Origin: Microcaldota archaeon
Lineage (GTDB): Archaea; Micrarchaeota; Micrarchaeia; Anstonellales; Anstonellaceae
Assembly: GCA_026396415.1 (NCBI GenBank)
Contig: JAPLWX010000015.1
Coordinates: 1 to 45,053 of the forward strand
Reading direction: 5' to 3'
Length of the DNA stretch: 45,053 nt
Position numbers and translations under genes: made by a program. Of this stretch, positions 1,697-42,998 are shown one piece after another. The notes under the pieces were generated by a model. It searched no databases. It was not told where the DNA came from and saw nothing but the letters and a program-made list of their open reading frames with translations. Position 1 is the first letter of the stretch. The number at the start of each line of letters is the position of its first letter.

Positions 1697-1807
1697 TTTT
1701 TTCACCTTTTTACGGCTTCCCGCAGGCACTTCCCCGCGCGCTTGCGCGGGCACGCCACTCTCGGAACCGCCGAATTACAATAAAATATGGGGCCATCGAG
1801 ATTTGAA

Positions 1808-2003
1808 TTTTCGGAACCCCGAACCTTTCATTCTTAGATTGGAACTTCATTGCCAACTGAGCGATACTCCGCTGCTTGCAGCGGAGCGAAGTTGGCAATA
1901 TTTCGACCGAATGGCGATGATACCCCGCTGCTTGCAGCGGGGCGCCTTCGGTCGAATTCATTCCAATTCTGGCAAATTTCTCTCGAAATTTGCCAAGGGC
2001 ACT
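1808..2003 (-). other. highly structured intron of tRNA-Pro
   Basis: This is the inferred intron. It holds two near-identical hairpins, CTCCGCTG/CAGCGGAG (1867-1886) and CCCCGCTG/CAGCGGGG (1923-1942). Each sits inside its own longer stem (ATTGCCAACT/AGTTGGCAAT and TTCGACCGAA/TTCGGTCGAA), and an outer ATTGGAA/TTCCAAT stem encloses both. A third 10-bp hairpin GGCAAATTTC/GAAATTTGCC spans 1971-1994. The short ORFs reported here are products of the palindromes. No homing-endonuclease ORF is present. Confidence 0.7.
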
Positions 2004-2040
2004 CTCGAATCTCTAGCACCCCAAGCTAGAAGGCTAGCCA

Positions 2041-2057
2041 GGTTACCCCATGGCCCC
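2041..2057. repeat. left attachment repeat (5' end of tRNA-Pro)
   Basis: The 17-bp sequence GGTTACCCCATGGCCCC overlaps the acceptor strand and D-stem start of tRNA-Pro. An identical direct copy lies at 38215-38231. The intact tRNA lies to the left and the element to the right. Confidence 0.8.
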
Positions 2058-2073
2058 CTGTAGTTTGGCTGGG

Positions 2074-2084
2074 GTTATTTAAAC
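2074..2084. promoter_or_regulatory. shared divergent TATA element for integrase and tRNA-Pro
   Basis: The symmetric core TTATTTAAA lies about 25 bases upstream of the integrase ATG (2107), fitting a leaderless mRNA. On the other strand it lies about 20-25 bases upstream of the first tRNA-Pro base (2057). It belongs to the element, so integration appears to supply tRNA-Pro with a new promoter. This is inferred from spacing only. Confidence 0.55.
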
Positions 2085-2106
2085 TTTGCTGCCCCATATA
2101 CTACTC

Positions 2107-3408
2107 ATGGTCACAGAAGAGGAAAGCCGTCTCATGGGATTCCAGAGGCAGCTTGCATCATCTCGTATGGTAGAAGCCAATCGAGGATATATTGGGAAAT
2201 ATTTAAAAGATGCCCTACTGCGCGGGCTGTCGCCAGGACGCCAGAAAATACTGCTCATGGAAGCACTCTATTGGGAAAAACTGCTCAAAAAGGACTTCAA
2301 GAAGGCGACCGAGGACGACCTGAAGGACGCGGTTTCAAGGATGCAGGCATCGAAATACAGGGATGCGACGAAAAAGAAGAAGGTTGCAATCCTCAAGAAC
2401 TTCTACCGCTGGCTTTATGACGGCGACGAGCTGCCACCGCAAGTCAAATTCGCGAAACGCATCCACTTCAAGGACGTGGAGCTCGATGCAAAGTCAATAA
2501 TCAGGCGCGACGACCTCGAAAAACTGCTCAAGGCCTGCGACAACGTGCGCGACTCAGCCCTGCTTTATCTCATGTGGGAAAGCGGCGTCAGGATTGGCGA
2601 GCTCACGAACGCCAAGCTTGACGACTACAAGGACGAAGGGGCATACTACTCGCTTGAGGTCAATGGAAAGACGGGCAGGCGGAAGATTGTCCTAGTCGAG
2701 TGCGTGCCCTACATGAAAAAATGGCTCAATAAACACCCATTCAGGGCCGCCGCGAACGCCCCCCTCTTCTGCTCCCTGGTCCATAAGACCATGGCGCCGC
2801 TCTCAATCCGCCACACCAATACAACGCTCAAGGCACTGGCTGGAAAGGCGAACATCAAGAAGCCGATTAACCCCCATGCCTTCAGAAGGGCGGCGGCGTC
2901 CGACAAGGCCCCGAGGTACTCCCATGCGACAATCTGCGCCTATTTCGGGTGGCGCCAGGGCAGCCGGACCCCCGCCCGCTACATTGGCGTGGACGCCGAG
3001 CAGACGAATGCCGAAGTGCTCAAGAGCTACGGCATCGGGAAGGACACGAAGCCTGCCCCCATTGCCATGGTGAAGTGCCCGAACTGCGGGACTGAGAACA
3101 TATCCGGGAACCTTGTCTGTGAGCTGTGCTCGCGCGCGCTGAACATGGGGGCGGCGCTAGAGGTGAAGAAGCAGCTCGAAAACGTGCCTTCCCTCCAGCA
3201 GCAGCTTGAGGAGATGCGCAAGGAGCAGGAAGAAACGAATAGGAAGATGCGCGAGGAACAGGAACGGATGAAGAAAGAGATGGAGCAGATGGCGACGCCT
3301 GCCGCGCTCACCACGGTGAGCCGCGGGAAACGGATCAGGGAAGCGCAGCCGTTGATGAAAAAGACCGTGGGGAAGGCGCGCGCCGCCAAGCCAGGCGACC
3401 TGGCTTAG
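2107..3408 (+). CDS. int: tyrosine recombinase / integrase with zinc ribbon and coiled-coil tail
   Basis: A phage-type integrase that would join the attachment site to tRNA-Pro. An N-terminal SAM-like core-binding region covers about residues 20-115. The catalytic domain follows with Arg in ESGVRIGEL (about 161), Lys in NGKTGRRKI, HAFR (HxxR, about 256), Trp in AYFGW in place of the second His, and Tyr in ARYIG (about 291). A CPNC...CELC zinc ribbon follows at about 323-342, then a Glu/Lys/Met coiled coil and a basic tail. The track starts at a TTG (2086). The ATG at 2107 is preferred because a TATA box sits about 25 bases upstream. It is the first gene inside the left attachment repeat, as expected for an integrase. 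Confidence 0.9.
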   Translation: MVTEEESRLMGFQRQLASSRMVEANRGYIGKYLKDALLRGLSPGRQKILLMEALYWEKLLKKDFKKATEDDLKDAVSRMQASKYRDATKKKKVAILKNFYRWLYDGDELPPQVKFAKRIHFKDVELDAKSIIRRDDLEKLLKACDNVRDSALLYLMWESGVRIGELTNAKLDDYKDEGAYYSLEVNGKTGRRKIVLVECVPYMKKWLNKHPFRAAANAPLFCSLVHKTMAPLSIRHTNTTLKALAGKANIKKPINPHAFRRAAASDKAPRYSHATICAYFGWRQGSRTPARYIGVDAEQTNAEVLKSYGIGKDTKPAPIAMVKCPNCGTENISGNLVCELCSRALNMGAALEVKKQLENVPSLQQQLEEMRKEQEETNRKMREEQERMKKEMEQMATPAALTTVSRGKRIREAQPLMKKTVGKARAAKPGDLA

Positions 3409-38214: not shown

Positions 38215-38231
38215 GGTTACCCCATGGCCCC
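38215..38231. repeat. right attachment repeat (orphan tRNA-Pro 5' fragment)
   Basis: GGTTACCCCATGGCCCC is identical to 2041-2057. On the minus strand it is the acceptor strand and D-stem start of tRNA-Pro, but no matching 3' half (TGGCCCC) follows within the element end. It sits 26 bp downstream of the rpoN stop codon, where tRNA-Pro would originally have begun. Confidence 0.8.
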
Positions 38232-42885: not shown

Positions 42886-42998
42886 TTTCCTTCGGAAAGC
42901 CGAGTTCCCAAAATCCGTCTCGCACTTTTTCGCTTGCGCGAAAAAGGCGTCCCCTTTCTGCTTCGCAGCAAAAAGTGGGTGGATTTTGCGACCCCGGC
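42886..42998. repeat. nested palindromic element with 12-bp flanking repeat at tRNA-Ser
   Basis: An outer stem CAAAATCC/GGATTTTG (42909-42916, 42981-42988) encloses CTTTTTCGC/GCGAAAAAG (42925-42946) and an imperfect CTTTCTGC/GCAGCAAAAAG hairpin. A further hairpin GGCTTTCC/GGAAAGCC (42883-42901) borders it. The tRNA 5' end TGCGACCCCGGC (42874-42885) is repeated exactly at 42987-42998, so the block is flanked by a 12-bp direct repeat like a target duplication. Confidence 0.7.

Follow-up and report, generated by a model that had tools for sequence, protein, structure and literature searches.

There is debate over how the introns of archaeal tRNA genes acquire their length and sequence. The site between nucleotides 53 and 54 is a documented non-canonical intron position, and reviewed lengths run from 11 to 129 nt (2014 review, PMC4090602). 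Mobile DNA has been implicated at the Caldiarchaeum tRNA-Thr(GGU) locus, where the proposal is that introns are introduced or split by an integrating element (PMC3293823), and pTN3-like integrases target the 5' half of tRNA genes, the tRNA then being expressed from element DNA (PMC8371274). The palindrome-associated transposable elements (PATEs) of Haloquadratum are without inverted repeats, have near-terminal palindromes and are often nested (PMC3119063). A limited search, covering mainly open-access literature, found no precedent for MITEs or palindromic elements lodged in the introns of tRNA genes.

The window analysed here, a stretch of 45,053 nt, holds on its minus strand a complete tRNA-Pro(GGG) gene (2057-1789) with an intron of 196 nt at 53/54. 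The organism is a micrarchaeon; the rps2 relatives that come from named genomes are mostly labelled Candidatus Micrarchaeota. We propose that this is a single-copy and probably functional gene whose ancestral BHB (bulge-helix-bulge) intron of ~34 nt at 53/54 was, very probably, enlarged by two successive palindromic non-autonomous elements. A preliminary description had assigned the gene a 196-base T-arm intron at 1808-2003, and these coordinates are right. The parts of the gene are as follows.

2004..2057 (54 nt), minus strand: exon 1, comprising acceptor, D arm, anticodon arm and the 5' half of the T stem; matches the orthologue of the nearest relative (L010) at every position
2003..2009, minus strand: 5' side of the BHB, with central helix UUCG (2009-2006) and bulge AG|A (2005-2003); predicted cut between 2004 and 2003
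1808..2003 (196 nt), minus strand: intron between nucleotides 53 and 54, placed by coordinates and BHB covariation
1807..1813, minus strand: 3' side of the BHB, with central helix CGAA (1813-1810) and bulge AA|U (1809-1807); predicted cut between 1808 and 1807
1789..1807, minus strand: exon 2, comprising T loop, 3' T stem and 3' acceptor; identical in L010

The discriminator A is at 1788 and the spliced sequence is normal (acceptor GGGGCCA/TGGCCCC, anticodon loop TTGGGGT, T arm UCGAG-UUCAAAU-CUCGA), while ARAGORN did not report the gene at 2057-1789. The tRNA-Pro(GGG) pattern occurs once in this genome and once in each of the 51 further genomes of the order in which it is present, and the gene lies before rps2 in the same arrangement as in relatives. 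A second intact tRNA-Pro(GGG) gene, which the preliminary description had linked to pseudogene status for this locus, was not found in this assembly (a draft of 52 contigs, ~92% complete). A search of plasmids with the gene region gave no match.

Across the order, 24 tRNA-Pro(GGG) genes with an intron at 53/54 were aligned at their junctions. The layout is constant: on one side four exon nucleotides are followed by AG (in one gene GG) and the cut, on the other four intron nucleotides by two more, the cut and U. The covariance check for a BHB that had been suggested for these junctions found 95 of 96 cells of the 4-bp central helix paired and the helix complete in 23 of the 24 genes. Changes are two-sided (UUCG/CGAA, UCCG/CGGA, UCCG/CGGG, UCUG/CAGA, CCCG/UGGG). 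None of 10,000 shuffles, in which the relatedness of the genes is still present, reached 23 complete helices (shuffled mean 12.9), and sliding one side of the alignment left no complete helix. On this covariation the intron is of the standard archaeal 3-4-3 BHB type. It shares with described introns at non-canonical positions (PMC4090602) the 53/54 site, the 3-4-3 BHB, the cut sites and a host endonuclease gene; it departs from them in consisting mostly of inserted repeat DNA and in its 196 nt, outside the range of 11-129 nt. It had been noted beforehand that non-canonical intron positions are known in some archaeal groups and that the intron exceeds typical lengths; both points hold, and 53/54 introns are common in tRNA-Pro(GGG) of the order. 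The tRNA splicing endonuclease gene of the same genome is a 447-aa frame with two PF01974 domains, reminiscent of the fused three-unit enzyme of ARMAN-2, which accepts relaxed motifs (PMC12397907; PMC4033280).

A 17-bp direct repeat, GGTTACCCCATGGCCCC, corresponding to the 5' end of tRNA-Pro(GGG), is present at window positions 2041-2057 and 38215-38231 and bounds an element of ~36 kb. This element separates tRNA-Pro-rps2 from the rps9 end of the operon; in L010 the two are contiguous. Its cargo includes a tyrosine recombinase (2086-3408), a T4SS-like ATPase and pilin, a Cdc6/Orc1-like ATPase and a type I restriction system. The use of a tRNA 5' end as putative attachment site resembles pTN3-like integration (PMC8371274), a likeness drawn from the choice of site. 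A TATA-like TTTAAATA lies at window positions 2071-2084, ~26 nt upstream of the tRNA; since this stretch belongs to the integrated element, the promoter of tRNA-Pro, and perhaps that of rps2, probably now comes from that element. The Caldiarchaeum tRNA-Thr(GGU) locus (PMC3293823) likewise has mobile DNA altering an archaeal tRNA gene and a direct repeat of the tRNA 5' end alongside, but the integrating element is there the proposed source or splitter of introns, whereas here small transposable hairpins would have enlarged an existing one.

The broken upstream operon, together with an intron length beyond the usual range, would fit a decaying pseudogene in which insertions abolished splicing and another tRNA reads the CCC/CCU codons. 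We regard such decay as very improbable, as the exons are those of the relative, the BHB is intact, the assembly yielded no other tRNA-Pro(GGG), and the integrated element keeps both the tRNA 5' end and the TATA-like sequence upstream. The locus is most likely a working single-copy gene, and probably an essential one.

In L010, from the same genus, exons identical letter for letter flank an intron of 34 nt, AGCGCCCTGGACAAAAGGTTCGGGGTTCCGAAAA, and 53/54 introns in the rest of the genus measure ~31-39 nt. The 196-nt intron would shrink to 85 nt with one of its repeats (family B) reduced to ATGAA. The ~160 nt in excess of the L010 intron consist of two nested dispersed repeats, families A and B, laid out in the intron as follows.

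1962..1994, minus strand: left part of family A, made of hairpin 1 GGCAAATTTCGAGAGAAATTTGCC (1994-1971) and the left arm of hairpin 2 AGAATTGGA (1970-1962)
1846..1961 (116 bp), minus strand: family B element, a 111-bp double hairpin plus ATGAA at both ends; precursor nt 97-212
1925..1940, minus strand: apical hairpin of B hairpin 1, CCGCTGCAAGCAGCGG
1869..1884, minus strand: apical hairpin of B hairpin 2, CCGCTGCAAGCAGCGG
1836..1845, minus strand: right arm of A hairpin 2, GTTCCAATCT, separated from the left arm by element B

The twin hairpins already remarked upon in the preliminary description are the two apical hairpins of B. That description had also treated the elaborate folding as what makes the intron unusual. 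Nearly all of the folding resides in the two dispersed repeats, which also occur outside tRNA genes, and the intron at the same place in the closest relative is plain. Rather than an 'unusually elaborate intron', this is better seen as one that palindromic mobile elements have invaded.

Family A is a double-hairpin repeat of ~50 bp that surrounds element B in the intron. Its copies are dispersed in this genome and in relatives, and it is absent from the L010 intron. Some copies are uninterrupted, with hairpin 2 intact (for example ATTGGAATATAGAAATTCCAAT), whereas in the tRNA intron this hairpin is split by B; the order is therefore intron, then A, then B. Repeats of 116 bp are prone to misjoining in short-read assemblies. 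The flanks of B in the intron belong together, as the tRNA halves match and the arms of A hairpin 2 are complementary, which is evidence against a misjoin at this site.

Six other copies of B, with 99-100% identity, are found at C5 (twice), C26, C14, C8 and C46. These near-exact copies have sharp ends, a length of 116 bp and unrelated flanks, and every full 116-bp copy starts and ends with ATGAA. Four more loci (C25, C31, C51, C38) share the left end of B and hold longer or diverged versions of the element. Terminal inverted repeats are absent, palindromes lie near both ends, and each half forms a hairpin that combines an apical stem of the CCGCTGCAAGCAGCGG type with an unpaired GTATC-like segment. 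Of 84 genomes of the order, 12 contain relatives of B, some of them short core matches; viral contigs searched with the hairpin core gave no match. Over seven aligned elements two-sided changes affect 10 of 26 predicted pairs, nearly all in hairpin 1, which covaries across genera; the outer stem of B hairpin 2 fell outside what this alignment could resolve. One relative (L094, in G076) bears ATCAA at both ends where the copies here have ATGAA, which suggests that the target pentamer of the family changed between clades. Longer B copies hold further hairpin cassettes in their loops, palindromes nested within palindromes. Such cassettes (for example CCCACTTTTT...AAAAAGTGG) are found in the loops of B copies and also alone elsewhere (L047, L143, L144, L145 and window 42923-42982).

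Empty sites are available for two copies. At the G003 orthologue of the C26 site the sequence is GGCAGATGAACCG, in which ATGAA occurs once, and the alignment to G008 runs ungapped across the junction of the C5:12783 copy. The net addition of B is 111 bp at a single ATGAA; with ATGAA at both ends of B against one in G003, a 5-bp duplication would give the same picture as an IS200-like insertion beside a fixed pentamer. When the flanks are joined through one ATGAA, the host frames at C14, C8, C51 and C5:12783 are restored. Copies of B occupy either strand, some in intergenic DNA and others within protein genes or at their ends. The C14 host gene ends in an MCM C-terminal domain, and B (L141, G000:C14:33268-33383) lies near the 3' end of this helicase gene, where the last ~20 residues give way to FIAN-stop. 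The C5 host is an SdpI-family protein, and one B copy extends such a protein in frame. At C31 (L143, G000:C31:24082), a 194-bp copy has a metal-transporter-like frame on one side and a NikR-like frame on the other, as read from translations; since its two flanks come from different genes, this copy may be a rearrangement or a misjoin.

Rickettsia palindromic elements are bacterial palindromic repeats of ~100 bp inside genes. B is likened to them by description, being of similar size, palindromic and found in genes, but it is archaeal and its host frames are often broken. An element of this type would be kept by in-frame survival within genes, a matter that concerns the spread of B and not the reading of the intron. 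The 111 bp added equal 37 codons and the SdpI-family protein is lengthened in frame, as such survival would have it; yet among the genes examined one clearly keeps an open frame through B, other copies stop or shift the frame of the host (at C14, at the MCM C terminus, and at C8 and C51), and several are intergenic. We consider this reading unlikely.

Element B behaves instead as a non-autonomous transposable element resembling PATEs: its dispersed copies are multiple, near-identical and too short to encode a transposase. Like the PATEs of Haloquadratum (PMC3119063), it lacks terminal inverted repeats, has palindromes close to its two ends, leaves no space for a transposase and is found nested; it differs in lineage and sequence, in having ATGAA at both ends and in residing inside a tRNA intron. 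B would be moved in trans by a single-strand transposase of the IS200/IS605-like kind. A further difference from PATEs is that no parental IS200/IS605 element with the ends of B was found in this genome. All eleven left ends of B in the genome were followed in search of an autonomous partner and none encloses a gene (one runs off the contig). The two Y1 transposase genes of the genome have flanking hairpins that differ from B. They belong to two IS200-type single-gene insertion sequences with end hairpins of their own (L136 and L137, G000:C25:92104 and 118044).

An archaeal tRNA-Trp intron contains a C/D guide, and the intron described here might likewise carry a functional structured RNA, such as an H/ACA-type guide, with stems kept for that role. 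Folding of the precursor is far beyond chance (MFE -132.5 against a shuffled mean of -88.1, z = -9.9), covariation is seen across the order in the stem pairs of family B, and Rfam gives a weak, sub-threshold match to H/ACA snoRNA (24.5 bits against a cut-off of 50, E 0.72). Such a role is nevertheless quite improbable, for the same 116 bp occur in intergenic DNA and protein genes on either strand, are missing from the intron of the nearest relative, and exist in scattered copies nearly identical to one another, as expected of recent mobile DNA. A guide-RNA origin of the intron was set aside given the sub-threshold score and the presence of element B outside tRNAs. B as a self-contained BHB intron was likewise rejected, the flanks differing at every site so that no common exon-intron central helix is possible.

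The BHB is missing from the MFE fold of the full precursor. Forcing the motif costs 4.8 kcal/mol over the MFE, whether B is present in full or cut down to ATGAA, and B itself therefore adds no folding penalty; the cost in L010, with its 34-nt intron, is 2.7 kcal/mol. With shuffled inserts of the same size the mean cost was 6.3, and in 84 of 200 cases it was no higher than with the real B. The idea that the folding of B specially protects the BHB is thus unsupported, and we make no claim that B is specially adapted.

We propose that intron invasion proceeded in three steps. A family A repeat of ~50 bp would have entered the ancestral ~34-nt intron; the 111-bp family B element would then have inserted at ATGAA in the loop of the second hairpin of A; and the BHB would have stayed available because the inserts sit inside the intron and fold on themselves, so that the tRNA splicing endonuclease should still excise the intron, now of 196 nt, in vivo. 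This proposal draws on features that are read directly from sequence, namely (i) the exons; (ii) the conserved BHB; (iii) the short intron of the relative; (iv) the dispersed copies; (v) the nested order; and (vi) the ATGAA target.

Elsewhere in the order some tRNA-Pro(GGG) genes have a pair of T-arm introns or a long one, with putative introns at 59/60 among them; the largest apparent interruption is ~225 nt (L185, in G069). In another family of the order, very long or double T-arm introns occur at L158, L161, L167 and L185, some with palindromic inserts of their own. Because several long introns hold their own palindromes, T-arm intron growth by hairpin insertion may be recurrent in this order, a lead and not a result. 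A broader and rather doubtful suggestion is that A, B and the cassettes form an undescribed class of archaeal mobile palindromes preferring hairpin loops, including those of tRNA introns. The pentamer that shifts between clades (ATGAA/ATCAA) would then suggest structure-guided single-strand insertion, and the endonuclease would release one element as RNA per tRNA precursor.

At this locus both the before and the after can be read: the relative has an intron of 34 nt, and the 196-nt intron here is built from insertions that can be identified and ordered. The inserted repeats help explain why tRNA finders miss such genes, and the locus offers a natural test of the intron length that an endonuclease of the Micrarchaeota type is able to handle. 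The intron of a probably essential single-copy tRNA gene would be a tolerated landing site for mobile DNA while the splice motif survives, and the locus gives a direct view of one route by which an archaeal tRNA intron grows.
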